A program made the translations under genes and the position numbers. A stretch of DNA of 16,630 nt from positions 1 to 16,630 of the forward strand of contig JAFTEK010000017.1 of the NCBI GenBank assembly GCA_017453705.1, in the 5' to 3' direction. The notes beneath the pieces were generated by a model, which made no database searches, had not been told where the DNA came from, and was given only the letters and a program-made list of their open reading frames with translations. This document shows positions 2,442 to 16,183 of the stretch, piece after piece. Origin of the DNA: Treponema sp. GTDB lineage: Bacteria; Spirochaetota; Spirochaetia; Treponematales; Treponemataceae. Each line of letters begins with the position of its first letter. Within the stretch, counting starts at the first letter, position 1.

Positions 2442-3826
2442 CAGGATTCCTCAAAATTCGCGCCGATTGCAGACATGACGGGGTAGAACCTGGGGAAGCT
2501 TACCGAACAGCACTCGGCTCCTTTTACAAGGACTTGTTCTCCGCCCTTGAGGGCGAGTCCCAGGCATGACAAGGACATGGCCACCCGGTGGTCTGCGTAG
2601 CTTTCCACCGTCCCCCCGTGGAGGGTGAATTGCGGGTTTGGTTTTCCGTCCGGCATCAAGGGGGAGTGGCCGTGTACTATCATATAGTCAGCCCCTGTCT
2701 CTATGTCCGCCCCCAGCTTGCCCAGCTCTTTTTTGAGCACTTCTATCCTGTCAGTCTCCTTGCGGCGGCACACGGCAATGTCTTCTATATATGTGTCCCC
2801 TTCGCAGAAGGCTGCTGCCACGGCAAGGGCGCATATTGCATCTGGCAGGCCAGACAGGTTCACGTGGAGCTGTCCGTCCGGGCAGCCCTCCGTGGAAAGC
2901 CTGCCCTTTCCCTTGCGTGCTTTGATTCCGCCTCTGACAGTGAGGGTCTTTTTTTCCCTGTTTTCTTCTATGTCAGCTCCCATCGTGCGCAAAATGCCTA
3001 CTATGGCATCATCCCCCTGTATCCCGGAGAAGTCCACGTTGTCTATCGTGATTTCGCTGTCCGTCAGCAGGGCCGCGACTAGGGGAAAGGCAACGGCTTC
3101 CCAGTCACTGGGAACAACTGCGTCGAATCCGCTGAATATACCGGTTCCTATAACGCTGATATGCTTGTAGTCGTCTGATATGGAGACTTTTGCCCCGACT
3201 TTTTCCAGCCATTTCTGTGTCATGGTCAGGTATGGGGTTTCCTTTGGGTCTGTAAGCTCTATCTCCATTTTGTCGTCCAGCCTGAGGGCGGCCATCATAA
3301 GGCCGGAGATATACTGGCTGGACACGCTGCCTTCCGTGGTCAGCCTGTAGGGCTTTTTGAGCGGGCCTTGTATTATCAGGGGGCATGTGGAGCTTGAGGG
3401 GCGGGCTGTGTAAGCCTGTGCGCCAAGCTGCCTGAGCGCGTCCACCACGTGGCCAACAGGCCTCCTTCTTATGCTCTCGTCCCCGGTGAAGACGCTCCAG
3501 CCTTCCAGGGTTGCCGCCAGTGGCGAGAGAAAGTATAGGAGGGAGCCTGAGTTCCCGACGTTCACTATGTCATCAGGCAGGTGGAATTTCCTTCCGGCTC
3601 CTTCTACCGTCCAGCAGCCTTCCCCTTCTTTGCCAAAGTCAACGCTGGAGCCCAGCAGGGGGAGCGCTGCGGCTGTGCTGCGGCAGTCCGCGCTGGGCAG
3701 GGGGTTGTGTATGTGGGATTCCCCGTCTGCGAGTGAAGCGAGGAGTAGTGCGCGTATTGTGTGTGATTTAGAGCCTGGAACTTGTATGTGGCCTGAAAGC
3801 CTGGAAGCTTTGCTTGTAATGTCCAT
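2441..3826 (-). CDS. aroA: 3-phosphoshikimate 1-carboxyvinyltransferase (EPSP synthase), divergent
   Basis: A 461-residue EPSP synthase homologue. The family transfers enolpyruvate from PEP to shikimate 3-phosphate in aromatic amino-acid synthesis, in the cytosol. Conserved blocks in order are PGSKSHTIRA (K20, S21, R25), VGNSGS (91-95), GDESIRRRPVG (R122), VSSQYISG (S169, S170, Q171), PSDWEA (D241), GLPDA (D329), RRKETDRIE (356-361) and YADHRVAMS (H413, R414). The length is slightly above the usual 430-450. Two usually conserved residues appear changed: tyrosine (Y98) stands where E. coli has Arg100 of GNAGTAMR, and valine (V442 of SVSFP) where E. coli has Lys411 of AKTFP. It may therefore be a divergent EPSP synthase or a relative with altered activity. 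It is first in a two-gene unit with the glycosyltransferase. The ATG at 3826 fits a TTGAGA-17-TAGCCT promoter that would start transcription on the ATG itself. Confidence 0.88.
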   Translation of the reverse strand: MDITSKASRLSGHIQVPGSKSHTIRALLLASLADGESHIHNPLPSADCRSTAAALPLLGSSVDFGKEGEGCWTVEGAGRKFHLPDDIVNVGNSGSLLYFLSPLAATLEGWSVFTGDESIRRRPVGHVVDALRQLGAQAYTARPSSSTCPLIIQGPLKKPYRLTTEGSVSSQYISGLMMAALRLDDKMEIELTDPKETPYLTMTQKWLEKVGAKVSISDDYKHISVIGTGIFSGFDAVVPSDWEAVAFPLVAALLTDSEITIDNVDFSGIQGDDAIVGILRTMGADIEENREKKTLTVRGGIKARKGKGRLSTEGCPDGQLHVNLSGLPDAICALAVAAAFCEGDTYIEDIAVCRRKETDRIEVLKKELGKLGADIETGADYMIVHGHSPLMPDGKPNPQFTLHGGTVESYADHRVAMSLSCLGLALKGGEQVLVKGAECCSVSFPRFYPVMSAIGANFEES

Positions 3827-3832
3827 GCGATA

Positions 3833-3861
3833 AGGCTAGCATAAAGTTGTAGGAATCTCAA
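3833..3861 (-). promoter_or_regulatory. Promoter of the aroA-like gene, predicted leaderless
   Basis: Read on the minus strand: -35 TTGAGA (3861-3856), 17-bp spacer, -10 TAGCCT (3838-3833) preceded by TGC as an extended -10. Six bases then separate it from the ATG at 3826, so the expected transcription start is the A of the ATG. The -35 is a 5/6 match. The -10 is weak apart from its TA...T positions. No Shine-Dalgarno sequence is visible. Confidence 0.5.
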
Positions 3862-3863
3862 GC

Positions 3864-3914
3864 TATAGGAACCTCGAAAAATCGCTTAAAGCGATTTTTT
3901 CGAGATGCCCTATA
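3864..3914. repeat. Large imperfect dyad between divergent promoters
   Basis: The inner arms are CTCGAAAAATCGCTT (3873-3887) and AAGCGATTTTTTCGAG (3889-3904), complementary except for one extra T. Outer arms TATAGG (3864-3869) and CCTATA (3909-3914) extend the symmetry. Each side of the inner stem carries an A or T run, so it could fold as a hairpin with a U-tract in either direction. It sits upstream of both divergent genes, where a terminator for either would make little sense. A regulator site, an insulating bidirectional terminator or a dispersed extragenic palindrome are the alternatives. Confidence 0.75.
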
Positions 3915-3940
3915 TTTTTATAGCATAAATCGGAAAAAGC

Positions 3941-3949
3941 TGTTATACT
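3941..3949 (+). promoter_or_regulatory. Extended -10 promoter of the EAL gene
   Basis: The sequence TGTTATACT contains TATACT (3944-3949, 5/6 match) with a TGN extension. No good -35 is found at 16-18 bp spacing. Ten bases separate it from the ATG at 3960, so the predicted 5' leader is only about 3-4 bases. Confidence 0.55.
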
Positions 3950-3959
3950 AAGTATCATA

Positions 3960-6290
3960 ATGAAATTGTTGTATGCGGCAGTCTTTCTTTTTGTTGACTT
4001 GCTGCTCATTTTTTGTCTCTTTCTCGCAAAAAAAATTGGTGGAGCTATTTCGTCCAGGCTGGAAGCTGTCCTGGCGGCTGCCAGCATCGCTGTCCTGAGC
4101 CATGTATTCATAGTTGCGACCAGCAGCATTGCGGTAGCCACGTTTGCTTATGCCCTTTTCTATGGGAGCGTCAACTGGATTTTGATTCTCCTTCTCCGCT
4201 TTTGCGTTTCATATACATCTTTTCATCATGAGGACAACGGGAGTTTTTTGTTCCTGGAGTCAACAATGATGCTGATTACCGCTATGGACAGCATTATGTT
4301 CTTGATGAACCCTGCCTCCGGCCTGGCTTTCGTGTGCAAGGCCGTTGACTGGAACGGCGTAGGCCCCTTCTTTATCACGGAGAAGAGAATTTACTTCCAT
4401 ATACATATAGTCTATTCCTACATACTCTCCATACTGATTTTCCTCATGCTGCTTGTGAAGATAATCAGGACTTCGCCGGCTTACTGGAGCCGCTACCTGT
4501 CCATAATGCTGAGCTTCCTTGTTACCCTTGTTTGGGACGCCTTCTTTGTGCTGAACAGGAATCCCGTGGACTTTTCTATAATCGGATATGCCGTAGCCTG
4601 TGTGCTCATCCTGTATTTTTCCGTCAAGTACAAGCCCAGCAAGATTATAAACAAGATTCTCGCCCGCATAGAGGACTCCAGCGAGGACATGCTTATTTTC
4701 TTTGACGTGGACGGCAACTGCATCTATGCCAACACCAGCGCGCTCCGTGCCTTCGGTTTTAAGGTAAAGAATCTGGACGAGTTCAGGGAGGTTGTGGCGG
4801 ACTGGCTGGATGACAAGGGCTTTGACCCCAAGGTGTCCAACTTTTCCGCTGTATGCTCCAAAGTCAGGAACGGAACGAAGTACCACTTTGAGTTTACTTA
4901 CCACACCCTCTATCATGGGACTGTCTCCGAGGGTTCTTTCTTCCATATAAGGGACTGCACAAAAGAGGTCAACTCCTTTAATGATGCCTATTACAAGGCG
5001 ACCCACGATGCCCTGACGGATATGTACAACATGGAATTCCTGGCCCAGAACATCAGCAGCAAGATCAAGATGGACGGGGAGGGCTGGTATATCGTTGTCA
5101 CCGACATAAAGGGCTTTAAGTTCATCAATGACCTCTTTGGCAAGAAGGTTGGGGATAAAATCCTGATTTCCTGTGCGGACATAATCAAGGGCATAGCCGG
5201 CGGGGGTTCCGGGGGCAAGCCTGATGAGGTCTATGGAAGGATAGGCGTGGACAGGTTTGCCGTCTTGACCAAGGATCCTGAGCGTTTCAAGAAGGAGTTC
5301 ATGTCCAGGGAAAAGGACCTGAACGATATGCTGGGGACTAATAACTTCCCGATTTTCGTCCACATGGGAATATACGAGGTGACAGATCCGGGCATGGATG
5401 TCGTCACCATGTTTGACCGTGCCAATCTTGCGATAGAAACTGTGAAAGACAGCTATGAGGTGTTCAGCGCGAAGTACGATGACTCCATGCGCAAGAAACA
5501 CCTCTGGGAGAGCAGGATAATAGGTGAGCTGGACGAGGCCCTTGCCAAAAAGCAGTTTGAGATGTACTTGCAGCCTCAGGCCGACAGGAACCTTAAGGTT
5601 TGCGGGGCGGAAGCCCTGATACGCTGGAGGCATCCGACGGAAGGCCTTTTGCCCCCGTCATGGTTCATCAGCACATTTGAGAAGAACGGCCTTATCGTCA
5701 AGCTGGATTTATTTATCTGGGAGGAGGCCTGCCGGACTTTGCAGATGTGGCAGACCCAGGGGATAAATGACCTGTATATCTCAGTCAATATCTCGCCGAG
5801 GGACTTTTTCTATATAGACGTATATCAGTCTCTTGTGGATTTGGTGAGGAAGTACGGCATTCCTCCGGCCAGGCTTAAGCTTGAGATAACAGAGACGGCT
5901 ATGATAACGGACTCTGACCGCCGCTTTGTCCTTATAGACCGCCTTCATTCTGCCGGCTTCCATGTGGAGATGGATGACTTTGGGTCTGGATATTCATCCC
6001 TCAATATGCTCAAGGACATAAAGGTTGACGTGCTCAAGATAGACATGCTCTTTTTGTACAGGGCGAAGGATGTTGACCGCAGCCGCATCATAATCAAACA
6101 GGTTGTCGGCCTTGCGAAGGAGCTGGGCATCACGGTCGTCACGGAAGGGGTGGAAAACGAAGACCAGCTCAAGTTCCTTATTGAGATAGGAAGTGACATA
6201 TTCCAGGGCTATTACTTCTCGCAGCCTGTTTCCCTTCCTGAATTCGAGAAAAAGTATGTCAGGGCTCCTGAAAGCTACGCCTTGCGATAA
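3960..6290 (+). CDS. Membrane-bound 7TM-PAS-GGDEF(degenerate)-EAL protein, predicted c-di-GMP phosphodiesterase
   Basis: A 776-residue signalling protein. Residues 1-225 form about seven membrane helices in the style of the N-terminal 7TM sensor domain found on some kinases and GGDEF proteins. A PAS-like domain follows at about 235-340 (MLIFFDVDGNCIYAN...), then GGDEF at 342-510 and EAL at 515-768. The GGDEF signature reads GVDRF (429-433), so the catalytic Glu is replaced by Arg and cyclase activity is unlikely; a GTP-sensing role is possible. The EAL domain looks complete: EAL (551-553), N610 in SVNIS, E642 in LEITET, D672-D673 in DDFGSG, K693 in VLKID, E729 in TEGVE and Q736. These are the metal and catalytic residues known for active enzymes, so hydrolysis of c-di-GMP to pGpG is expected. 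FliG1 follows 60 bases downstream on the same strand, suggesting a link to motility. The last codons and stop lie inside a 16-bp repeat unit. Confidence 0.92.
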   Translation: MKLLYAAVFLFVDLLLIFCLFLAKKIGGAISSRLEAVLAAASIAVLSHVFIVATSSIAVATFAYALFYGSVNWILILLLRFCVSYTSFHHEDNGSFLFLESTMMLITAMDSIMFLMNPASGLAFVCKAVDWNGVGPFFITEKRIYFHIHIVYSYILSILIFLMLLVKIIRTSPAYWSRYLSIMLSFLVTLVWDAFFVLNRNPVDFSIIGYAVACVLILYFSVKYKPSKIINKILARIEDSSEDMLIFFDVDGNCIYANTSALRAFGFKVKNLDEFREVVADWLDDKGFDPKVSNFSAVCSKVRNGTKYHFEFTYHTLYHGTVSEGSFFHIRDCTKEVNSFNDAYYKATHDALTDMYNMEFLAQNISSKIKMDGEGWYIVVTDIKGFKFINDLFGKKVGDKILISCADIIKGIAGGGSGGKPDEVYGRIGVDRFAVLTKDPERFKKEFMSREKDLNDMLGTNNFPIFVHMGIYEVTDPGMDVVTMFDRANLAIETVKDSYEVFSAKYDDSMRKKHLWESRIIGELDEALAKKQFEMYLQPQADRNLKVCGAEALIRWRHPTEGLLPPSWFISTFEKNGLIVKLDLFIWEEACRTLQMWQTQGINDLYISVNISPRDFFYIDVYQSLVDLVRKYGIPPARLKLEITETAMITDSDRRFVLIDRLHSAGFHVEMDDFGSGYSSLNMLKDIKVDVLKIDMLFLYRAKDVDRSRIIIKQVVGLAKELGITVVTEGVENEDQLKFLIEIGSDIFQGYYFSQPVSLPEFEKKYVRAPESYALR

Positions 6291-6326
6291 GGCTGCCCTA
6301 AAATAAGCCTGCCTTGAAATAAGGCG
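6279..6326. repeat. Three tandem copies of a 16-bp palindromic repeat
   Basis: The units are GCCTTGCGATAAGGCT (6279-6294), GCCCTAAAATAAGCCT (6295-6310) and GCCTTGAAATAAGGCG (6311-6326). Units 1 and 3 are GCCTT-N5-AAGGC hairpins; the middle copy has diverged. Unit 1 supplies the last three codons and the TAA of the EAL gene. A 14/16 match in the same orientation lies at 3822-3837, over the aroA-like start codon. No T-tract follows, so it is not a standard intrinsic terminator. Confidence 0.75.
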
Positions 6327-6342
6327 GAATTTGTCATAGGAT
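6314..6342 (+). promoter_or_regulatory. Candidate promoter of fliG1
   Basis: The -35 TTGAAA (6314-6319, inside the third 16-bp repeat unit) is followed by a 17-bp spacer and -10 TAGGAT (6337-6342, 4/6 match). Eight bases separate it from the ATG at 6351, so the predicted start falls on or within 2 bases of the ATG. No convincing Shine-Dalgarno is present. The gene could also be read through from the EAL gene. Confidence 0.4.
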
Positions 6343-6350
6343 GAAAACGT

Positions 6351-7655
6351 ATGAAGCTGAACGATTATATGCTCGATGCCTATAAGAAGGCTTCCGATGA
6401 AGTTCCTGAGGGAAAGGGGGCTTCCAGGCCTTTGGTGCACAAGCCGATTTTTGAGAAGGTTAACAGCCGGGTGGGGGAAATCCTTGGCCAGCAGGCAGCT
6501 GACCGCAAGAACCTTGAGGAGGCGGAGATTGCTGCCAGGACGGGCATTTGGTATGGTAAAAGCCCTGCCGGGCCTAGCGATGCTGACGTGCGCAAGGCTG
6601 CCCGCCCCCTGACAGAGGGCGCCCTTATAAAGGTTCCAGAGAAGCCCAAGGAGGCGGATGGAAGGGAGAGCATATACCGCCGTGTGGCCAAGTTTCTGGT
6701 TATAATCGGGTTGGACGAGGCCGCCAAGATTATTCCCCAGCTCAGTGACGACCAGATTGAGAAGATAATGCCAGAGATAGCCTCAATCCGCTCCGTTCCC
6801 AAGGAGGAATCAGAGCAGATTCTCAAGGAGTTTGAGTCCCTGTTGGACAAGGCCAGGGAAGAAGGCGGCATAGATACTGCCCGGACGATATTGACCAAGG
6901 CCTATGGGGAAAAGCGGGGCGAGGAGATATTGGAGAAGGTTGTCCAGTATCCCAACGGAAGGCCGTTTGACTTTCTTTCCGAGGCGGGCGCCGACAGGAT
7001 AAGCGTGCTGCTGCATGGTGAGAGCGAGCAGGTGCAGGCTCTAGTCCTCTCCCAGATAGAGCCGAAGAAGGCCGCCGAGGTCATAAAGGGCATGGATGAT
7101 AAGGCCAAGAGCGCGATAGTGATACGCCTGGTCAAGATGAAGAATGTCGCCCCCCAGGTCATGGAGAGTGTCAGCAAGAGCTTGTATGACAAGATGCTTT
7201 ATCAGAACACTGAGGTTTCCCAGGAGCTGGACGGTAAAAACGTGCTGGCTCAGATTCTCAAGAGGATGGATCCAGGCACCGAGTCCAACTTGATAGCGGC
7301 GCTTTCCGGTGAGGATCCTGAGCTGGGGGCTGATATAAGGAAAAGGCTGTTCACGGAGGACGATCTGGTTAATGCCGAAGACCGTTACTTGCAGAACAAG
7401 CTGTATGACATGGATGACAAGACCATTGCAATCCTGATAAAGGGCAAGAAGGCTGACTTCCGTGACAAGATTCTTTCCAACCTGTCCAAGAGAAGGGCTG
7501 ACAGCGTGCTGTACGAGGAATCCCTCACTGAGTTCCTGCTAAAGAGCGAGAGCGAGAGGGTGACATCACAGTTCTTCGCAGACCTCCGCCGTGCGTGGGA
7601 AGCAGGTGAAATGCGCGTGTCCGGCCGTGATGACAGTGAAATCTGGGTACAGTAG
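6351..7655 (+). CDS. fliG1: Flagellar motor switch protein FliG1 (divergent spirochaete FliG paralogue)
   Basis: A 434-residue FliG homologue, longer than the usual 330-350 because of an N-terminal extension of about 105 residues with no clear domain. The FliG N domain follows (about 106-200), then the middle domain (205-285) and the C-terminal domain (295-425). Recognisable blocks are RRVAKFLVIIGLDEAAKII, NVLAQILKRMDPGTE, RLFTEDDLV, IAILIKGKKADFRDKI and NLSKRRAD. The middle-domain EHPQ motif, part of the FliM-binding surface, is replaced by ESEQ (224-227). Spirochaetes generally encode two FliGs: FliG2 is the normal rotor protein, while FliG1 in Borrelia burgdorferi is not needed for flagellar assembly at both poles but affects motility. 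The extension and altered motif fit FliG1. The start chosen agrees with the promoter spacing; the next gene is 161 bases downstream, past a repeat array. Confidence 0.8.
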   Translation: MKLNDYMLDAYKKASDEVPEGKGASRPLVHKPIFEKVNSRVGEILGQQAADRKNLEEAEIAARTGIWYGKSPAGPSDADVRKAARPLTEGALIKVPEKPKEADGRESIYRRVAKFLVIIGLDEAAKIIPQLSDDQIEKIMPEIASIRSVPKEESEQILKEFESLLDKAREEGGIDTARTILTKAYGEKRGEEILEKVVQYPNGRPFDFLSEAGADRISVLLHGESEQVQALVLSQIEPKKAAEVIKGMDDKAKSAIVIRLVKMKNVAPQVMESVSKSLYDKMLYQNTEVSQELDGKNVLAQILKRMDPGTESNLIAALSGEDPELGADIRKRLFTEDDLVNAEDRYLQNKLYDMDDKTIAILIKGKKADFRDKILSNLSKRRADSVLYEESLTEFLLKSESERVTSQFFADLRRAWEAGEMRVSGRDDSEIWVQ

Positions 7656-7660
7656 CATTT

Positions 7661-7752
7661 GCCTTGAAGCTTCGCTGGCGGTTGCCTTGAAGCTTCGCTG
7701 GCGGTTGCCTTGAAGCTTTGCTGGCGGTTGCCTTGAAGCTTCGCTGGCGGTT
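7661..7752. repeat. Four tandem copies of a 23-bp repeat
   Basis: The copies lie at 7661-7683, 7684-7706, 7707-7729 and 7730-7752. Each begins GCCTTGAAGC, contains the palindrome GAAGCTTC, and ends TGGCGGTT. The copies are identical except for one C-to-T change in the third, which breaks that palindrome. There are no spacers between units. The array lies in the 161-base gap between fliG1 and the M16 peptidase gene. Because 23 is not a multiple of three, any reading frame through it shifts at each unit. Confidence 0.95.
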
Positions 7753-7781
7753 CCAGAGTTACCTCAAAAAAGGTTATAAAC

Positions 7782-7810
7782 TTGCAGAAAAGCCCTTCTT
7801 GTGCTAAAGT
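7782..7810 (+). promoter_or_regulatory. Promoter of the M16 peptidase gene, predicted leaderless
   Basis: The -35 TTGCAG (7782-7787) and -10 TAAAGT (7805-7810) are separated by 17 bp, with TGC before the -10 as an extended element. Six bases follow before the GTG at 7817, so transcription should start at that codon. No ribosome-binding site is visible. Confidence 0.55.
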
Positions 7811-7816
7811 TCCTAA

Positions 7817-10800
7817 GTGATGAAAGTTGACGATGTTTACAAAGGTTTTAGGGTTCTGTCGGTTTCGTATCTGAAGGATTATGCTTCTAAGACCATATAC
7901 CTTAGGCACGAGGAGAGCGGGCTGGAAGTCTTTAAGCTGCTCAATGATGACAGCGAGAATGCGTTTGCATTCGCTTTCCGCACTCCTACAGAAAACAGCA
8001 CGGGGGTGGCCCATGCCATAGAGCACTCAGTGCTTTGCGGGTCTTCATCATATCCCCTTAAGGATCCCTTTATCAGGCTGGAGAACCAGAGCCTGAGCAC
8101 TTACCTGAATGCCTATACATGCCCCGATCACACGGTTTATCCGTCCAGCTCACCTGTCAAGGCTGACTTTTACAATATATTCTCCGTGTATGCTGACGCG
8201 GTGTTTTTTCCCCTGCTCAAGGAGGGGGCTTTCCTTCAGGAGTGCCGGCATTTGGAGCTTGGAGAGGACGGCTCTCCTGTTATGCAGGGGGTCGTGTTCA
8301 ACGAGATGAAGGGCAACTATGCTTCTTTTGATGATGTGGCATACGATGCGATAAACCTGCCGCTTCTGGAGGGGAGTGAGTATGCTTACGATTCAGGCGG
8401 AGACCCGCTTGCAATTCCCGGTCTTAGCTACGAGGCCTTCAAGGATTATCACCGCCGCTACTACTGTACTGCCAACTGCCTCTGCTTTCTTTATGGCAAT
8501 ATCCCGCTGGAGGAGGAGCTTGATTTTCTTTCTGGGCATATCATAGAAAAGATTGACTGCCCCGGAAAACGCGCCTCGTATCCTGTGCCTGACTTTTCCA
8601 AGCCTGTGCGGGATAATGTGCAGGCTTTCGCCCCTGCCGCCGAAGGAAGTGAAGGCTCCCGCAGGATTGTCGCCATGAGCTGGAGGACTACGGACCGCAT
8701 AGAGGACGAGAAGCTTAATTCCTTTAAGATGGAGCTTAGTTTTTTGAGCGAGCTGCTTTGGGGTGATGACAGCGCCCCTGTTTCCAAGAGGATTCTCGCA
8801 TCCAACGTGGGCAAGGCTATTGCCCCTTATACAGGCTTTTCGGCCAGTACCCGATTCCCGACTCTCTGCTTTGCCATGAGCGGTGTCGAGAAGGGTGATG
8901 AGGATAAATTTAGGAACCTGCTTTTGTCTGCATTGAAGGATGTCGCGGAAAACGGGGTGGCCAAGGAAGACTTTGACAGGGCTGCGATGAGCTTTGATTT
9001 TTCCAACAGGGAGATAAAGAGGCCTGAAGGTCATCCTTATTCCATGGTGCTGATGAGGCGGGCTGTCAAGAGTTGGATTTACGGCTTTGAGCCGGGCTGC
9101 GCCCTTTCTTGCCGTGAGGATTTTGAGGCATTGAAGGCTGGGATTGCCGGGGATTCCGGCTTGATTTCCCGCTTGATAAGGACATACCTTTTGGACAATC
9201 AGCGAAGATGCCTTGTCTCTGTGGATCCGTCAGCGGATTGGGAGAAGGAGAGGGCTTGCAAGGAAAAGGCTGTTATAGAAAAGGAATTCTCCCTGCTGGG
9301 AAAGGAAGGCCTTCTTTCCAAGCTTAAGCTTATGCAGGACTTTCAGGAGTCCGATGAGGACGAGAGCTGCATTCCGCACCTGCATCTTTCAGACCTGCCG
9401 CGCAATCTGGACAAGATTGAGATGGACAGGGATGAAGCAGATGGGTTTCCTTTTTTTGTTAGCCGTGAGCATACCAATGGAATCTGTTATTTTGAGCTGG
9501 CTTTTCCCTTTGATACCCTTGATGTGGAGGACTATCCCTATTTGACGACCCTTGCGAGCCTCGTTTCTCAGCTGGGATTCAAAGGCAAAAGCTGGGATCA
9601 GGTTATGTCCATGATTGGGGCTGTATCGGGGGCTTTCTGGGCGGAACTCAAGAGTTTCAGCTGTTCATCGCAGGGCAGGAAGGATATGGCTGGCAGCCCT
9701 TATCTGGAAAGGGATATGTTCATCTTCCGCTTTAAGTGCTTGGACGAGAAGTTTCAGGAGAACCTGGATTTGCTCTCGTCCTACCTTGAGGGAATGGATT
9801 TTTCAGACAGCAAGAGGATTGGGGACCTGCTTACAGCCAATGCTAACGATGCCAAGTCTTCGGTTCTCCCCGAGGCGCATATTTATGCCATGTACAGGTC
9901 TGCCAGAAAGCTGAGCCCCAAGCTGGCCATACGTGAGATTCTCTTTGGGCTGACTTCCGTTGTATTTGTATCTTCCCTTAAGGACAGGAATCTAGCTGAG
10001 CTTTCCGCCCGTTTGGAGGCAATCTTTAAAAAGATAGTTTCTGGAACCGCGGTCATACACGTTATTTCGGAATCTGACCGGCTTCCCAAGCTCCGAGAGT
10101 CCATCTGCTCATTTGTAAAAAGGCATGGCCTCAAGGCTCTGGCTCCTGCCCCCCGGTTTGGTGAGAGCAGGTTCAAGAGTCTGGTAAAAATGACGGAGCT
10201 GGACGGAAAGATTTCCCGCGAAGAAAAAGCCGCAGTTGATGAGCTTCTCACGATTCCCGGAACGGTGGCTTTTGATGCCAGCTGCTGCAAATCCAGTCCT
10301 TATGGCTGCAAGGAGTCCATGGCAGACCTGGTGTTTTCGCACTGTCTTTCCATGACTGACTTGTGGGACAAGGTTAGGACAAAAGGCGGGGCTTACGGGG
10401 TTTTCTTCCATCCCAATCCCATGAACGAGGTCAGCTACTTCCTTACTTACCGTGACCCCAGGCCTTTCCTCTCTCTTTCTGCCATCGTGGACTCCCTGAA
10501 TGATGATGAGGCTGGTCTGTTCACTGATACGGAGCTTGAGAAGTCCATCACGGGCTGCTATGCCACGGAGATAGCTCCAAAGTCTCCCTCGGCAAAAGGC
10601 GGCACGGGCTTTTTCTGGCTTTTCAACGGCGGTTCCAATGAGGACGTTGAACGGAGGGTCAGCCAGTTGCTATCGCTAAGCAAGGAGGATCTGAAGGCTT
10701 CTTGTATGCGCTACAGGGAATCATTTGTCAGGGGGGCTTCTGTCGCTGTTCTTTGTCCCAGGACTTTGCTGGATGCCCAGACGGAAGAATCCACTGGAAA

Positions 10801-10822
10801 AATAATAGACTTGCCGCTATAA
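7817..10822 (+). CDS. M16-family zinc metallopeptidase (insulinase/presequence-protease PreP type)
   Basis: A protein of about 1001 residues, matching the length of the M16C/PreP group, in which two halves of the enzyme are fused and enclose a chamber that degrades peptides. The inverted zinc motif HAIEH (H66, E69, H70) lies in TGVAHAIEHSVLCGSSSYP, with the third zinc ligand E163 in VVFNEMKG. SLSTYLNAYTCPDHTVYP between them is also characteristic. The C-terminal half (about 520-1000) is the non-catalytic homologous half. No signal peptide or membrane segment is seen, so a cytosolic role in peptide breakdown is likely. Start: GTG at 7817 and ATG at 7820 are adjacent in frame. The promoter spacing favours 7817, but either is possible and the product differs by one residue. 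A small gene follows 21 bases downstream. Confidence 0.9.
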   Translation: MMKVDDVYKGFRVLSVSYLKDYASKTIYLRHEESGLEVFKLLNDDSENAFAFAFRTPTENSTGVAHAIEHSVLCGSSSYPLKDPFIRLENQSLSTYLNAYTCPDHTVYPSSSPVKADFYNIFSVYADAVFFPLLKEGAFLQECRHLELGEDGSPVMQGVVFNEMKGNYASFDDVAYDAINLPLLEGSEYAYDSGGDPLAIPGLSYEAFKDYHRRYYCTANCLCFLYGNIPLEEELDFLSGHIIEKIDCPGKRASYPVPDFSKPVRDNVQAFAPAAEGSEGSRRIVAMSWRTTDRIEDEKLNSFKMELSFLSELLWGDDSAPVSKRILASNVGKAIAPYTGFSASTRFPTLCFAMSGVEKGDEDKFRNLLLSALKDVAENGVAKEDFDRAAMSFDFSNREIKRPEGHPYSMVLMRRAVKSWIYGFEPGCALSCREDFEALKAGIAGDSGLISRLIRTYLLDNQRRCLVSVDPSADWEKERACKEKAVIEKEFSLLGKEGLLSKLKLMQDFQESDEDESCIPHLHLSDLPRNLDKIEMDRDEADGFPFFVSREHTNGICYFELAFPFDTLDVEDYPYLTTLASLVSQLGFKGKSWDQVMSMIGAVSGAFWAELKSFSCSSQGRKDMAGSPYLERDMFIFRFKCLDEKFQENLDLLSSYLEGMDFSDSKRIGDLLTANANDAKSSVLPEAHIYAMYRSARKLSPKLAIREILFGLTSVVFVSSLKDRNLAELSARLEAIFKKIVSGTAVIHVISESDRLPKLRESICSFVKRHGLKALAPAPRFGESRFKSLVKMTELDGKISREEKAAVDELLTIPGTVAFDASCCKSSPYGCKESMADLVFSHCLSMTDLWDKVRTKGGAYGVFFHPNPMNEVSYFLTYRDPRPFLSLSAIVDSLNDDEAGLFTDTELEKSITGCYATEIAPKSPSAKGGTGFFWLFNGGSNEDVERRVSQLLSLSKEDLKASCMRYRESFVRGASVAVLCPRTLLDAQTEESTGKIIDLPL

Positions 10823-10823
10823 T
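10818..10823 (+). promoter_or_regulatory. Perfect TATAAT overlapping the M16 stop codon
   Basis: TATAAT at 10818-10823 spans the TAA stop (10820-10822) of the M16 gene, with no good -35 at 17 bp. It would start transcription near 10830, about 14 bases before the ATG of the small gene. It may be chance, given the sequence around a TAA stop. Confidence 0.3.
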
Positions 10824-10843
10824 GGCAATGAGGTGTGGTTAAT

Positions 10844-11068
10844 ATGAACAAACTTGCTGTTTTGGTGAAGATGATAAGGCAGTTGGTCTCGGATGTGCAG
10901 GGAGCACCCTATCCCGGTCAGGGACTGGAGCCTGAGGTTTACAAGATTTGGTACGAGCATGTCCAGAAGAACGCCCAGGACTGCAATGAGTTTTTGGCGG
11001 CGAACTTTCCCCTTGAGACCAAGGAATTCAACCAGTCCATTGACAAAATGTTTAAACAAAAGGCTTAA
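10844..11068 (+). CDS. Small conserved-looking hypothetical protein (74 aa)
   Basis: A short soluble protein, beginning MNKLAVLVKMIRQLV and ending DKMFKQKA, not recognised. It looks mostly helical, with no signal peptide, cysteine pair (only one Cys) or obvious DNA-binding motif. A central PYPGQGLEPEVYKIW segment is the most distinctive stretch. The ATG at 10844 is preferred over the in-frame GTG at 10835 because GAGGTG (10830-10835) lies 8 bases upstream of the ATG as a good Shine-Dalgarno. It sits 21 bases after the M16 gene and 38 before the tocopherol-cyclase-like gene, all on one strand, so the three may be co-transcribed. Codon use resembles its neighbours, and with the ribosome site this supports a real gene. 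Confidence 0.7.
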   Translation: MNKLAVLVKMIRQLVSDVQGAPYPGQGLEPEVYKIWYEHVQKNAQDCNEFLAANFPLETKEFNQSIDKMFKQKA

Positions 11069-11106
11069 ATGGGAAATGGCACATGCCGACTATGTAATGG
11101 GTGGGT

Positions 11107-12291
11107 ATGTCCATGGATTTAAACAAAGTCAGTCGCAGTAGGCGCTATAAGCTCACAGGTTTGTTGAGAAAGAACGGCTTTGACCGCTGGCGTATAAGTG
11201 CCAGCGCGATCAGCTCAGTTACCGGGGAAGAGTGCGCTTTTTTCATTGAATTCTATGTTGTGAACCCTGCTATTTCTCCTGACAAGGCTGTTCTTGGATT
11301 CAAGAGCAGGCTTCCCAAGACTGACACCGACCTTCAGTATGCCCTTGCTGGTACAGAGAGCGAAAAATCACTTCTGCAAGAAGAATTTGTGCAGCCGTCC
11401 TTTGTAATGGTAAAAGCAGGCAAGCTCTCCAAAAGGGGCAAGCAGCTCAATGCCTATTTTCCGTGTTCTTCACTGGTCACTGGAACCCCGGAGTATATCG
11501 TAAAGGCCGGAAGTTCTGAAAAGGACACCTGTTACATAAAGGAAAACGCCACTGCCGGAAGCATTTCGGTTTCCGGGGCAGATCTGTTGGAGAAACCAGA
11601 GCTGCTTGGAAACGCAGGCTCCATAGCATGGAACCTGCACTATACGATAGAGGACGGGTTCTTTCCAAATTACAGGAGCAAGCAGGCCAACTGGGCCTGT
11701 TTTGGGGCCAGGACTTCGGTTGCCGGAGTCATTGTGATGGACGGCGAGCAATATAATGTCAGCAAGGATCGCTCTTACGGATATTTTGACAAGAACTGGG
11801 GGCGTAGCTTTACCAATCCATTCCTTCACCTAAGCTCATCCAACCTGGTCAGCAACATTAGCGGGCGTAAGCTACTGGAGTCATGCTTTGCGATACAGGG
11901 GGAATACAACTCCAGGCTCTGCATCCTCACTTCCATAGAGGGCAAGAAGCTGGAGTTCCACGCCGGCAGCCACAAGAATTACAGCACGATTTATGAGTGC
12001 ACCCAGATGCCGGAGGACGAGGACGGAATCAAGCTGCACTGGTCTGTAAGCATGAACAACAGGAGCTATGTCATAGACGTTGATATCGTGTGCAACGCCG
12101 AGCAGATGTTCGTCCGTGACTACGAGTGTCCCGATGGTGGCCGCAAGGTCATGAAGCTGATAGGCGGTGGCAGCGGAACTGGAGAGGTTAAGATTTACCG
12201 CCGGGTACGAAAGGATTTGGAACTCATAGAGGACGTGCATGTGGGAAACTGCCTGTGTGAGTTCGGCAATATCGAGAACTCCCCAAAATAA
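11107..12291 (+). CDS. Tocopherol-cyclase-like beta-barrel protein of unknown function
   Basis: A protein of about 394 residues. The N-terminal pattern KNGFDRWRISASAIS...TGEECAFFIEFYVVNP and the motif YGYFDKNWGRSF (about 224-235) resemble the tocopherol-cyclase-like family. That family has a lipocalin-like double beta-barrel, and its plant and cyanobacterial members cyclise prenylated quinols. A spirochaete is not expected to make tocopherol, and no quinone or isoprenoid genes lie nearby, so only the fold is proposed. No signal peptide or membrane helix is visible. Possible starts are GTG 11101, ATG 11107 and ATG 11113. ATG 11107 is chosen because a weak -10 (TGTAAT, 11093-11098) lies 8 bases upstream, but this is uncertain. 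The stop lies 5 bases from the stop of the convergent gene. Confidence 0.65.
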   Translation: MSMDLNKVSRSRRYKLTGLLRKNGFDRWRISASAISSVTGEECAFFIEFYVVNPAISPDKAVLGFKSRLPKTDTDLQYALAGTESEKSLLQEEFVQPSFVMVKAGKLSKRGKQLNAYFPCSSLVTGTPEYIVKAGSSEKDTCYIKENATAGSISVSGADLLEKPELLGNAGSIAWNLHYTIEDGFFPNYRSKQANWACFGARTSVAGVIVMDGEQYNVSKDRSYGYFDKNWGRSFTNPFLHLSSSNLVSNISGRKLLESCFAIQGEYNSRLCILTSIEGKKLEFHAGSHKNYSTIYECTQMPEDEDGIKLHWSVSMNNRSYVIDVDIVCNAEQMFVRDYECPDGGRKVMKLIGGGSGTGEVKIYRRVRKDLELIEDVHVGNCLCEFGNIENSPK

Positions 12292-12296
12292 AAGTT

Positions 12297-13322
12297 TTAG
12301 TTCCCCTCATACAGGTCTATGCAGGAGTCTATCCACTTTCCGGCTAGCTCAGGGAAGCTGTCCTGGACTGTGAGGAATAGGTTAAGGGCCTCAGCATAGT
12401 TTTCCAGATAGTATTCGGCTTGTGCCAGGTAGAATGTCGCGCGCTTGGTCGTCCCCTCGTCCCTCCTCTGTGCCAGGAAGGATGAGAGGGATGTCCTTGC
12501 GGCGGCATAGCTGTACTGCATCCAGCCTTCGTTCAGAATCTTGTAGAGCAGGTAGTCATCTCCCCCGGCAGGAACGGTCTGGTCTTCTGTGAATATGTGG
12601 CGGAAGAGGGGGACCGCCTTGCGGCCGGACTTCCACTTTGAGGGAACAAGGCCTGTTACATTCTGCTCCGTCTGGGGCGTTATGCTCCTCTCCTTCCTGC
12701 GGGTTTCGTCCTGCTCCAAGAGCGGGACAGCCGGTGTACGCCTGTCCGCCGCATGCATATCGGAGTCCGCCTCATGCATATCGTAGTCCGCCGTCGTGCC
12801 GGAAGCCAATGTGCCTGCCTTGAGGCTGGCTGCCGCGGGGGAGAGGGTCGCGTTGATTCCCGGCAGGACGGCGGCATACAACATACCTCCGTCCTCATTT
12901 ATGCCCGGCTCTCCGTCAGAGCCGTCCAGCTCCTCGTCGTAGTATAGGTCTTCCCAGCCTTCCATGACCCCGCTCTTGTCCACGAATGTAAGAACGGCAT
13001 AGTAATAGGCCTTGCCATCAGTCTCATCAGTATAGGATATGTGGTTTTTGGGAACAGCTGCTATAGGGAAGAGGGACTTGACCCTGGTTCCGCTGTATAT
13101 GGGCTTTTGATCCCGGTATATTGCAAAAAAAAGAATCTTGCCCCTGGACTCTCCTTCTGGAAGGCTCCAGCTGAGCCTTGTCTTGCCGTTGCCTGCATCC
13201 TCTGCCTGTATGTTGGAGACGCACATCGGGTCGTAAGAGCCTTGGGCAGGGCAGGGCAGGGCTGAGCCTATGAATATAAATAGCAGTATGCAGACTTTTG
13301 TTAAAAATCTTGTTGCACTCAT
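12297..13322 (-). CDS. Secreted FN3-like / TPR-like protein, unknown function
   Basis: A 341-residue exported protein. The N-terminus has basic residues (R5, K9), then a hydrophobic core (CILLFIFIGSAL) and a likely signal-peptidase I site around PCPAQG (residues 23-28). Cys24 is preceded by Pro, so a lipobox is unlikely. Residues about 33-120 have the strand pattern of a fibronectin type III fold (VSNIQAE...TRLSWSLPEG...FAIYRD...YYYAVLTFV). A low-complexity acidic and Ala-rich linker follows, including a 7-residue repeat (ADYDMHE/ADSDMHA). The C-terminus (about 295-340, FYLAQAEYYLENYAEALNLF) resembles a TPR hairpin. It would act in the periplasm or outer envelope, probably through protein binding. 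It starts 7 bases after the rhomboid-like gene and should be co-transcribed. GGAG lies about 13 bases upstream, a poor spacing. Confidence 0.75.
   Translation of the reverse strand: MSATRFLTKVCILLFIFIGSALPCPAQGSYDPMCVSNIQAEDAGNGKTRLSWSLPEGESRGKILFFAIYRDQKPIYSGTRVKSLFPIAAVPKNHISYTDETDGKAYYYAVLTFVDKSGVMEGWEDLYYDEELDGSDGEPGINEDGGMLYAAVLPGINATLSPAAASLKAGTLASGTTADYDMHEADSDMHAADRRTPAVPLLEQDETRRKERSITPQTEQNVTGLVPSKWKSGRKAVPLFRHIFTEDQTVPAGGDDYLLYKILNEGWMQYSYAAARTSLSSFLAQRRDEGTTKRATFYLAQAEYYLENYAEALNLFLTVQDSFPELAGKWIDSCIDLYEGN
12743..12793. repeat. 21-bp coding tandem repeat, two copies and a partial third
   Basis: Units at 12743-12763 and 12764-12784 differ at three positions, and a partial third copy begins at 12785. 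They encode a 7-residue repeat of the kind AD(Y/S)DMH(E/A) in the linker of the secreted FN3-like protein. The repeat is in frame, so copy-number changes would alter linker length without breaking the protein. Confidence 0.7.
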
Positions 13323-13329
13323 GGAAAGG

Positions 13330-14076
13330 CTATATCTCCAGTGTGTCCGTGAAGCTGTCGTCCATGTCAGCCACGACAGTAGCCTCGTTTTTCCGCCGCG
13401 GCTTGGCAGGCTTTTCTTTTTTCCTTGCCGGGGCCTTTGTCTTTGCGGGGCTAGAGTCCTTGGACAGCATTAGGAATGCAGGCAGGCTTCCCGCAATGCC
13501 TCCTGCAAGCGATATGAAAATCGGAATACATGAGTTGAGCATTATGGAAAAGCTTGCGGGAGCTAGTGGCTGTATGATGGTGTATAAACGGATTGCCGTG
13601 AAGATGAGGAAAGAGAGAATCCAGCTGAAAGAGATGCTTCCGCTGGCAAGGCAGGCAAAAAAATTCAAAAGCAGCAGCATGAATATGATGGGGTCAGGCC
13701 CTTGTGCCGTCAGGTTTGGGATAAGGCATACCAACACCCCGGAGACCAGTGCCGAAAGGAAGAACGTCACGGCCAGGGTCAGGTGTCCGCAGGATTTCTC
13801 CGCGTTTCTTCCCAGGAGCAGCATGAGCAGGGCGTTAAAAAGCAGAGGCTCCCAGCCTTGAGAGCCTAGGACATGGCAGAACAGTCGCAGGTAGTCAAGG
13901 GGAGCCTTTAAGTTCATGGAAGTGCATGTGAAAAACTGCTGGATTAAGCTGTGCCCTTCGGGAAAGCTCATCCTTCCTTGCAGGGATATGTTGAGCGCAT
14001 ATACAGCGATGTATGCAAGCACAAGCAGTATGCTTACCGGGGCATCAAATGTGAAAGTGTATCTTTTTTTTGCCAT
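13330..14076 (-). CDS. Rhomboid-fold membrane protein lacking catalytic residues (pseudoprotease)
   Basis: A 248-residue polytopic protein with about six membrane helices. LRLFCHVLGSQGWEPLLFNALLMLLLGR (64-90) closely follows the rhomboid pattern of R-L-F...H-x-x-x-N-x-L...G after helix 1. The HxxxN histidine is replaced; only the Asn (N81) remains. The catalytic GxSG region reads GPDP (126-129) with Asp in place of Ser. No histidine occurs after H98, so the TM6 catalytic His is also missing (SLAGGIAG, 189-196). It should therefore fold like rhomboid but not cleave. The tail (207-248) is very basic (AKTKAPARKKEKPAKPRRK) and then acidic, and is probably cytoplasmic. It shares an operon with a secreted FN3/TPR-like protein, suggesting a role in its handling or anchoring. 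The ATG is set by a TTGACA-17-TACACT promoter ending 6 bases upstream. Confidence 0.7.
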   Translation of the reverse strand: MAKKRYTFTFDAPVSILLVLAYIAVYALNISLQGRMSFPEGHSLIQQFFTCTSMNLKAPLDYLRLFCHVLGSQGWEPLLFNALLMLLLGRNAEKSCGHLTLAVTFFLSALVSGVLVCLIPNLTAQGPDPIIFMLLLLNFFACLASGSISFSWILSFLIFTAIRLYTIIQPLAPASFSIMLNSCIPIFISLAGGIAGSLPAFLMLSKDSSPAKTKAPARKKEKPAKPRRKNEATVVADMDDSFTDTLEI

Positions 14077-14082
14077 GTAGAC

Positions 14083-14111
14083 AGTGTATGCCTAAAGCCC
14101 CCTTTTGTCAA
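14083..14111 (-). promoter_or_regulatory. Promoter of the rhomboid-like gene, predicted leaderless
   Basis: On the minus strand: a perfect TTGACA (14111-14106), 17-bp spacer and TACACT (14088-14083). Six bases lie between it and the ATG at 14076, so transcription should start on the ATG. The -35 overlaps that of the divergent nadE promoter. Confidence 0.7.
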
Positions 14112-14131
14112 ACACGATATCCTGCTATAAT
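14105..14131 (+). promoter_or_regulatory. Promoter of nadE, predicted leaderless
   Basis: TTGTCA (14105-14110) and an extended -10, TGCTATAAT (14123-14131), with a 15-bp spacer. The perfect TATAAT and TGN extension may offset the short spacer. Six bases lie between the -10 and the ATG at 14138, so the A of the ATG is the expected start. Confidence 0.7.
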
Positions 14132-14137
14132 CCTTTT

Positions 14138-16183
14138 ATGAAGTATTCAATTCTCAGGGCGGCGGCAGTCAGCCCTTCTCTTATAGTCGCGGACTGCGAT
14201 TACAATGCAGGTCAGATAATCTCTTGCATAAAGGATGCCTATGCAGACGGAGCCAGGCTGCTGGTTTTCCCGGAGCTTTGTATAACGGGCTACACATGCG
14301 GGGATCTTTTTGCCCAGGATACCCTGCTCAGCGCGGCGTTGAAGGCCCTTCTCAGGATAGCTGATGAGACCAGGAATTTGGGGATAATATCTGTGGTGGG
14401 GCTGCCCCTGGCGGTGGATGGAGTCCGGTACAATGTTGCGGCCTTTGTTAACAAGGGGGAAGTCCTTGCCGTCACGCCAAAGCTCTATATCCCAAATTAT
14501 GGGGAATTCTACGAGAGACGCTGGTTTTCACCTCCTGTAAGGGGGATACCCGATATGGTGAGGCTTTCTGACTCAATGTGCGAGGTTCCTTTCGGTTTGA
14601 ACCTGCTTCTTCAGGACAAGGATGACAGTCATTTCAAGCTTGCGGCTGAAATCTGCGAGGATGCCTGGACTCCTTTCTCCCCCTCCGTCCGCCATGCACT
14701 GAACGGAGCGACCGTCATTGCAAATCTGAGCGCGAGCAACGAGCTTGTCGGAAAGGCCGACTACCGCAGGCAGCTGGTTTCTTCCCTGTCCGCCAAGTCT
14801 TTGTGCGCCTATGTCTACAGTGATGCCGGGCATGGGGAGAGCAGCACGGACATGGTTTTTTCCGGCCACAACATCATCGCCATGAACGGCTCGATAAGGG
14901 CGGAGTCTCCTCTGTTTGACGGCTGCGGCAGGATTCTTTTCGCTGACCTTGATTTGGAGAGGATTTACCAGGACAGGCTCAGGACCACTAGCTTCGCCTC
15001 ATGCAGGGAGGATTTTGCGGACGACTCCTATAGGACTGTGTTCTTTGATATAGACGAGAACATTTTCGGGGACATGGCTGATTGCCCGATAGGATTCCAG
15101 TCTGCTTCAAAGTCTTCCCATGCCGCAGACCGTGTGCTTGTTCCTCCTGTTGAGCCGCATCCTTTTGTGCCTGAAAAAGACGCTGAGAGGGCGGAGCGTT
15201 CCCGCTCTGTTGTGGAGATGCAGGCTGAAGGCCTTGCCAAGAGGCTGTCGCACATACATGCAAAAGGCGCGGTCATAGGTTTGAGCGGGGGGCTGGATTC
15301 CACCTTGGCACTGCTGGTAACATGCAGGGCTTTTGATAAGTGCGGGCTGGATCGCAAGGGGATTCTCGCTGTCACCATGCCATGCTTCGGGACCAGCTCA
15401 CGCACAAGGGGCAACGCATATATGCTGGCGGAAAGCTCCGGCTGCTCCATAAAAGAAGTGGACATAAGGGAATCGGTGCTGTGCCATTTCAAGGACATAG
15501 GCCAGGATGAGTCTGTGCATGATGTGACTTACGAGAATGCACAGGCCAGGGAGAGGACCCAGGTTCTCATGGATATTGCCAACCAGACAGGTTCAATCGT
15601 GATAGGAACAGGAGACTTGAGCGAGCTGGCCCTGGGCTGGTGCACGTACAACGGGGATCAGATGTCCATGTACGGGGTTAACGCGAGCATACCAAAGAGC
15701 CTTGTGCGCTACCTTGTCTCCTACTTTTCCGATGAGGCCGATAAGCAGGGGAATTCAAAGCTTGCGACAGTCCTGCGCGATATACTTGCCACTCCTGTAA
15801 GCCCGGAGCTGCTGCCTCCGTCAGACGGTGAGATAGCACAGAAGACCGAGGAGATAGTCGGCCCCTACGAGCTGCACGATTTCTTCCTTTATTATGTATT
15901 GCGCTGGGGCTTTCCGCCTGCCAAGATATATTTCCTTGCTTGCATGGCTTTTTCAGGAAAGAAGGCCCAGGACTCGGAGCAGATATACAGCGATGAGATT
16001 ATCTTGCGCTGGCTAAAGAGCTTTTACCGCCGTTTCTTTGCCCAGCAGTTCAAGCGCAGCTGTATGCCCGACGGAGCCAAGGTGGGAACAGTCAGCCTTT
16101 CTCCGCGCGGAGACTGGCGTATGCCCAGCGATGCCAGCGCGAGTTTATGGCTTAAGGAGCTGGAGGCATTGGAAACGAAGTAG
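14138..16183 (+). CDS. nadE: Glutamine-dependent NAD+ synthetase
   Basis: A 681-residue two-domain enzyme that amidates nicotinic acid adenine dinucleotide to NAD+ using glutamine and ATP, the last step of NAD synthesis. The N-terminal nitrilase-type glutaminase has the triad E46 (VFPELCITGYTCGDLF), K115 (TPKLYIPNYGEFYE) and C173 (AEICEDAWTP). These positions are close to those known in the mycobacterial enzyme (52, 121, 176). The synthetase domain has the P-loop SGGLDS (383-388), then IGTGDLSELALGWCTYNGDQMSMYGVN (489-515) and a C-terminal PSDA-type end. The frame is open upstream to a TTG at 14105, but the perfect -10 lies inside that stretch and the family N-terminus begins near MKYSILRAAAVSP, so ATG 14138 is the start. 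It is divergent from the rhomboid-like gene and shares its control region. Confidence 0.96.
   Translation: MKYSILRAAAVSPSLIVADCDYNAGQIISCIKDAYADGARLLVFPELCITGYTCGDLFAQDTLLSAALKALLRIADETRNLGIISVVGLPLAVDGVRYNVAAFVNKGEVLAVTPKLYIPNYGEFYERRWFSPPVRGIPDMVRLSDSMCEVPFGLNLLLQDKDDSHFKLAAEICEDAWTPFSPSVRHALNGATVIANLSASNELVGKADYRRQLVSSLSAKSLCAYVYSDAGHGESSTDMVFSGHNIIAMNGSIRAESPLFDGCGRILFADLDLERIYQDRLRTTSFASCREDFADDSYRTVFFDIDENIFGDMADCPIGFQSASKSSHAADRVLVPPVEPHPFVPEKDAERAERSRSVVEMQAEGLAKRLSHIHAKGAVIGLSGGLDSTLALLVTCRAFDKCGLDRKGILAVTMPCFGTSSRTRGNAYMLAESSGCSIKEVDIRESVLCHFKDIGQDESVHDVTYENAQARERTQVLMDIANQTGSIVIGTGDLSELALGWCTYNGDQMSMYGVNASIPKSLVRYLVSYFSDEADKQGNSKLATVLRDILATPVSPELLPPSDGEIAQKTEEIVGPYELHDFFLYYVLRWGFPPAKIYFLACMAFSGKKAQDSEQIYSDEIILRWLKSFYRRFFAQQFKRSCMPDGAKVGTVSLSPRGDWRMPSDASASLWLKELEALETK

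Follow-up and report, generated by a model that had tools for sequence, protein, structure and literature searches.

Lead genes of the locus and their promoters

The stretch analysed here (the window throughout) is a whole contig of 16,630 nucleotides, JAFTEK010000017.1, from an assembly (GCA_017453705.1) of an uncultured, rumen-type Treponema sp. representing a 2.28-Mb genome in 393 contigs that is 72% complete. Six of its genes stand first in their transcription units (lead genes), and Pfam matches assign their products to EPSP synthase (aroA), a 7TM-GGDEF-EAL protein with EAL and GGDEF domains and a 7TM region, FliG (fliG1), an M16C/PreP-like protease (M16), a rhomboid-family protein and NAD synthase (nadE). 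The nearest named relatives of NadE are Treponema metagenome-assembled genomes (MAGs), many of them carrying a rumen label; Treponema sp. RUI307 (L101), at 80% identity, is the closest. The subject of this report is a promoter hexamer, the TANNNT or -10 box, which lies so close to the start codons of these lead genes that their messages would carry little or no leader. A base-by-base reading confirmed a box 6-10 bases before the start in all six, where spacing denotes the bases between box and start codon. The six promoters are as follows.

aroA promoter, 3824..3861, minus strand: TTGAGA (3856-3861), a 17-bp spacer ending in TGC, TAGCCT (3833-3838), 6 bases and ATG (3824-3826), without a Shine-Dalgarno (SD) stretch; it reads TTGAGA-17-TGCTAGCCT-6-ATG.
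EAL/GGDEF gene promoter, 3941..3962, plus strand: extended -10 TGTTATACT (3941-3949), 10 bases and ATG at 3960; predicted leader about 4 nt.
fliG1 promoter, 6314..6353, plus strand: TTGAAA (6314-6319), 17 bp, TAGGAT (6337-6342), 8 bases and ATG at 6351; predicted leader 0-2 nt.
M16/PreP-like protease promoter, 7782..7822, plus strand: TTGCAG (7782-7787), 17 bp, TGCTAAAGT (7802-7810), then GTG at 7817 after 6 bases and ATG at 7820 after 9.
Rhomboid-family gene promoter, 14074..14111, minus strand: TTGACA (14106-14111), 17 bp, TACACT (14083-14088), 6 bases and ATG at 14076.
nadE promoter, 14103..14140, plus strand: TTTTGT with a 17-bp spacer (14103-14108) or TTGTCA with a 15-bp spacer (14105-14110), extended -10 TGCTATAAT (14123-14131), 6 bases and ATG at 14138.

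The original prediction gave a -35 element for the rhomboid gene only (TTGACA); a -35 with a 17-bp spacer is also present at aroA (TTGAGA), fliG1 (TTGAAA) and M16 (TTGCAG), while no convincing -35 was found upstream of the EAL -10 in the window. Spacings of 8 for fliG1 and 10 for the EAL gene were as claimed. Of the four exact 6-base spacings proposed, three (aroA, rhomboid and nadE) are secure with an ATG, but that of M16 depends on the GTG, a position that reads GTA in L101, where the box is kept 9 bases before the ATG. Because of this GTA, the ATG at 7820 is the likelier M16 start, which would give a spacing of 9 and a leader of about 3 nt, and M16 was dropped as a fourth exact-6 case on the same ground. 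In the window, the fliG1 box shares bases with an SD-like AGGA; the L101 orthologue reads TTGAAA-17-TAATAT-8-ATG without AGGA, and an SD-led fliG1 was set aside since the AGGA is lost there and the -35 and -10 are kept. The rhomboid and nadE promoters stand back to back with overlapping -35 elements, filling almost the entire 61-bp intergenic space (14077-14137), and both are retained in L101, in which TAAACT replaces TACACT at unchanged spacing in the rhomboid promoter (TTGACA-17-TAAACT-6-ATG). Given this overlap, binding of polymerase at the two promoters may be mutually exclusive.

Two further features adjoin these promoters. The space between the aroA and EAL genes, which diverge and have no gene end between them, contains an almost perfect palindrome (3873-3904) with runs of A and T that is terminator-like on both strands; the stretch around it (3862-3915) has a folding energy of -21.3 kcal/mol (z -5.9). 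A 23-base tandem repeat in 4 copies with 97% matches (7659-7752) occupies much of the space from fliG1 to M16. In four relatives (L104, L106, L110 and L132), the end of the fliG1 match and the start of the M16 match lie within about 13 bases of each other, and for this reason M16 may have acquired its own near-leaderless promoter in the lineage of the window.

Positional peak in the genome

The test named in the original prediction, a positional -10 peak across first-in-operon starts, was applied to a sample of the same genome made up of 100 contig stretches plus the window (554,986 bases, 555 kb), in which a home-made hexamer gene caller called 427 genes with predicted start codons. Lead starts (n = 182) had a divergent neighbour with a gap of at least 20 bases or a same-strand gap of at least 80, and internal starts (n = 123) a same-strand gap below 25; another 51 starts with a neighbour, mostly at intermediate gaps, were set aside, and 71 genes with no neighbour on the contig or with a start cut by the contig end were excluded. 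The chance background was the mean count per position at spacings 14-49. The peak is present and beyond chance: TANNNT stands at spacing 6 before 24 of the 182 lead starts, whereas the background mean is 3.8 per position (maximum 8; Poisson p ~3e-12), and at spacings 7, 8 and 9 before 11, 12 and 7. Internal starts have the box at spacing 6 in 3 of 123 cases, the set-aside starts likewise peak there (6/51), and a rule blind to start-codon type gave 16/121 at this spacing for the initial portion of the sample. All 24 spacing-6 leads begin with ATG, compared with 143 of the 158 other leads, under a selection rule that itself favours ATG.

These boxes are accompanied by further promoter elements. 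Among the 24 spacing-6 leads, 11 have TTG upstream of the box at a distance of exactly 17 bp (15/46 at spacings 5-8), compared with 1/24 for a 15-bp and 4/24 for a 19-bp spacer, and TGn directly precedes the box in 8/24; because of the TTG and TGn counts, the upstream pattern has the character of a sigma70 promoter signature beyond mere A/T-richness. SD-like stretches are nearly missing from the 46 leads with a box at spacings 5-8, being found in 2 of them and in 73 of the 136 other leads (Fisher p 2e-10). Counts that are independent of gene calling point the same way: over the whole genome, TATAAT-N6-ATG occurs 61 times against 8 for the reversed pattern, a count that becomes noisy across the phylum, and the composite TTG-N20-TANNAT-N6-ATG occurs 46 times at spacing 6, 8 times at 15 and 10 times at 30, falling from 46 to 6 when the -35 is moved to a 15-bp spacer. 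A start-agnostic count of bare TANNNT before any ATG gave no clear peak, while TATAAT did peak, and the weak TANNNT alone therefore proves nothing without gene starts.

Conservation in orthologues

For nadE, the comparison covered 44 loci (20 named relatives, 23 further loci and the window) that all have the start in view and comprise 42 distinct upstream stretches. TANNNT lies at spacing 6 or 7 in 34 of the 44 (28 at 6 and 6 at 7), and any other spacing is found in at most 4. Eight of the 10 exceptions are SD-like. Upstream of nadE, L186, L194, L196 and L197 carry an SD-like stretch and lack the box at 6-7, unlike most loci of the family; in L186 a TATAAT is present, with a longer leader containing an SD-like stretch after it. 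Judged from their upstream DNA, these four loci can be read as natural switches between the leaderless and the SD-led mode. Among the seven Clostridia-type nadE relatives viewed, several have purine-rich SD-like stretches instead of the box. For fliG1, nine same-genus orthologues were picked from 38 other genomes with a match, namely those in which the match begins at residue 1-3 and upstream DNA was at hand, and eight of the nine have TANNNT at 6-7.

Frequency of the leaderless layout

The share of leaderless leads was estimated with a mixture model that combines a fixed -10 matrix (spacings 6-9) and a fixed SD matrix, is summed over candidate starts and is given bootstrap ranges. The 182 leads of the genome came out as 38% leaderless (30-46%), 53% SD-led and 9% neither, and divergent leads alone as 49% leaderless (36-60%), whereas the 123 internal genes gave 3%; the leaderless layout is thus confined to the first genes of transcription units in this genome. 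With the -10 model shifted 10-26 bases upstream, the same leads gave 0-3%. A leaderless posterior above 0.8 was obtained for 61 of the 182 leads, equal to 14% of the 427 called genes. Leaderless leads are therefore a large minority, roughly a third, with about half SD-led, and they are not the default for lead genes that had been proposed; a box at every transcription-unit start is true of the window, with spacings of 6-10 allowed, and untrue of the genome as a whole, and the window is a somewhat lucky place for exact-6 boxes.

Related genomes were treated in the same way. In loci from Treponema MAGs, the raw count of 20/127 is inflated by nadE itself, and after the 18 nadE starts were dropped the model assigned 34% of the remaining 109 leads to the leaderless class. 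For other genomes of the family, sampled at 100 kb each with 35-53 leads, the leaderless fraction was 32% in G200, 29% in G111, 23% in G019, 19% in G257, 16% (0-35%) in G056, which is indistinguishable from none, 15% (0-28%) in G268 and 11% (0-23%) in G265. G034, from another class of the same phylum, gave 5%, Bacteroidota loci 6% (0-16%) of 114 leads, and Clostridia-type loci 0% of 133 leads. Contrary to the general pattern, 23% of the internal genes in G111, of which there are only 20, were called leaderless. Raw TANNNT at spacings 5-8 exceeded background in the 100-kb samples of G200 (8 vs 4.0) and G257 (11 vs 6.4).

Several points weigh against a high frequency or a general leaderless state. 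The -10 and SD matrices were learned from the lead set of the genome itself, which makes the 38% partly circular there, though not the values for other genomes, and lead-gene counts depend on the home-made gene caller and its predicted start codons. The plain excess of TANNNT at spacings 5-8 amounts to (46 - 15.4)/182, about 17%, which may serve as a floor. Elsewhere in the family this raw count shows little or no excess in G019 (7 vs 10.1), G268 (5 vs 6.0), G265 (7 vs 5.5), G111 (8 vs 6.0) and G056 (3 vs 2.2), so that the model fractions in these genomes lean on the stricter box, and the moved -10 control is as high as 12% for G200 and 8% for G111. A free expectation-maximization fit of the leaderless fraction was set aside, as shuffled sequence gives classes of similar size. 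For aroA, TANNNT lies at 6-7 in only 5 of 20 family orthologues, taken from 33 other genomes with a match, and 13 of the 20 are SD-like, one having both; because of this mixture, the leaderless state of aroA is labile. The genus also has leadered genes: one sigma70 promoter of T. denticola, located by RACE (rapid amplification of cDNA ends), is described as having its start 14 bases upstream of the start codon, and for another promoter the distance is 124 bases (PMC9481697). For T. pallidum, a published RNA-seq study called transcription starts with ANNOgesic (PMC12223175).

Spread across Spirochaetia

In 158 Spirochaetia genomes, matches to the composite TTG-N20-TANNAT-N6-ATG were compared with matches to a control pattern in which N15 replaces N6. 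All 145 genomes outside one family (f6) have more matches at 6 than at 15 (4,098 vs 1,086), compared with 3 of the 13 genomes within it (93 vs 124). Against a second control, at spacing 30, spacing 6 had more matches in 44 of the 48 genomes examined outside f6 (1,403 vs 504), not in the other 4, and in 0 of 2 within f6. Moving the -35 to a 15-bp spacer reduced the count from 63 to 10 in G086 and from 61 to 13 in G019; the G056 counts are 3 at spacing 6, 0 at 15 and 2 after the -35 is moved, and G101, a member of f6, has 5 at spacing 6 and 7 with the moved -35. The Borrelia_orfA family (PF02414) is present in the three f6 genomes tested and absent from three genomes of other families, on which basis f6 is very likely Borrelia and its kin.

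On balance, we lean towards a history in which leaderless sigma70 promoters are ancestral and class-wide in Spirochaetia, serve some 10-40% of lead genes in the Treponema family depending on lineage and have been lost in Borrelia, with orthologues such as nadE flipping between the leaderless and the SD-led state through a few bases gained or lost between the -10 and the ATG.

Outside the six promoters, the window holds a 21-base repeat in 2.4 copies (12744-12793) inside gene 12297-13322, a gene without a Pfam match. An Rfam search of the window matched no family.

Interpretation and alternative explanations

The boxes are very probably the -10 elements of housekeeping sigma70-type promoters that lie close enough to the start codon to yield leaderless mRNA in roughly a third of the lead genes of this genome. 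The box, its exact spacing, the -35 at 17 bp, the absence of SD, the restriction to lead genes and the conservation at nadE and fliG1 are observed. Transcription usually starts 7 bases after the -10 hexamer, and from this distance we infer that the mRNA begins on the start codon or within a few bases of it, as had been predicted. In the proposed mechanism, a promoter of the form TTG...-17 bp-(TGn)TATAAT is set tight against the start codon, so that a spacing of 6 would place the first transcribed base on the A of ATG and spacings of 7-9 would place it 1-3 bases earlier; the resulting mRNA would lack an SD, and ribosomes would begin at its 5'-terminal AUG, as on other leaderless messages. The remaining lead genes are mostly SD-led, as are most internal genes. 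Initiation at a 5'-terminal AUG is known in other bacteria (PMC12340547; PMC9031893), and by analogy with them leaderless translation is likely here. Promoters reported for Treponema have TTGACT and TATACT, with the -10 and -35 labels exchanged in the T. denticola text (PMC9481697).

Short leaders in place of none are the alternative that survives best, though it is unlikely: the promoters would be real, with transcription starting further downstream or the true start being an in-frame ATG further in. The EAL spacing of 10, the M16 spacing of 9 with its orthologue-supported ATG and the 11, 12 and 7 leads at spacings 7, 8 and 9 speak for it, but it is at exactly 6 that the peak is sharpest, the nadE alignments run from residue 1 in 20/20 named-relative loci and 14/23 further loci, so that the annotated methionine is kept, and a leader of 0-4 nt would be too short for an SD anyway. 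It is very improbable that the box is instead an unstructured A/U-rich stretch aiding ribosome binding through S1 on an mRNA leadered from a promoter further upstream. Such a role has been suggested for some phyla (PMC5397173), other phyla do have a bias towards A/T around their starts, and in the Bacteroidota loci TANNNT becomes broadly more frequent at spacings 8-10 (7, 6 and 9 of 114; background 3.2); yet these loci have neither a peak at 6 (4/114) nor TTG at 17 bp (0/4), and in the Treponema genome TTG keeps its fixed 17-bp distance in 11/24, a 2-bp shift of the -35 cuts the composite count from 46 to 6 and internal genes lack the box. Chance combined with reader selection, the best of many matches to a weak motif having been picked, might be entertained from the window alone (at least 3 of 6 at spacing 6, p = 0.026 at an assumed rate of 21/176) and is hardly credible given the genome-wide peak (p ~3e-12), the class-wide counts and the orthologue conservation, the peak and the conservation being the grounds on which it was rejected.

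The original observation is correct, real and general to the lineage, and its interpretation was right in kind and too strong in degree.

Relation to known systems and significance

Leaderless genes are of a known kind. A 2011 prediction of TA-led genes found them in 6 of 18 Spirochaetes genomes, at a mean of 3.9% of genes (1.8-6.9%), and does not name Treponema in its main text (Zheng et al., PMC3160421). The present boxes resemble those TA-led genes, as far as that account describes them, in having TANNNT about 12 bp before the start, concentrated at one position and without SD, and differ from the reported range in reaching 14% of called genes from leads alone. In Leptospira interrogans, differential RNA sequencing mapped many starts 0-10 nt from the start codon and about 440 leaderless mRNAs, and the part of the study dealing with the mapped starts describes no over-represented -10 or -35 motif upstream of them (PMC5243855). 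Both organisms are thus spirochaetes with a leaderless layout, mapped there and deduced from DNA here, and in the present case, unlike what is described for L. interrogans, sigma70 elements and their spacing are clear. In Deinococcus, a TANNNT adjoining the open reading frame drives leaderless mRNA, as tested there by experiment, and about a third of genes are of this kind (PMC12340547). The box adjoins the reading frame here as well; differences from the Deinococcus system, as reported, are a TTG visible at 17 bp in 11/24 exact-6 promoters and SD-led leads at least as common as leaderless ones.

Treponema and Leptospira belong to different classes. The original prediction knew of no report for the genus, and none of the papers found in searches of the open-access literature addresses leaderless mRNA in Treponema by title; for the phylum, leaderless genes were already on record (PMC5243855; PMC3160421). 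The spread across Spirochaetia with a Borrelia exception was not found in print in the open-access literature searched.

For annotators and tool-builders, these results mean that in Treponema a -10 box marks the start codon and that lack of an SD should not be taken to indicate a wrong start. They add a genus widespread in gut and rumen to those bacteria, among them Actinobacteria, Deinococcus and Leptospira, in which leaderless expression is known. The differing state of nadE between lineages makes the switch between leaderless and SD-led expression testable, and most of the sampled Spirochaetia set beside the Borrelia-type genomes offer a natural contrast for what leaderless translation requires of the cell.

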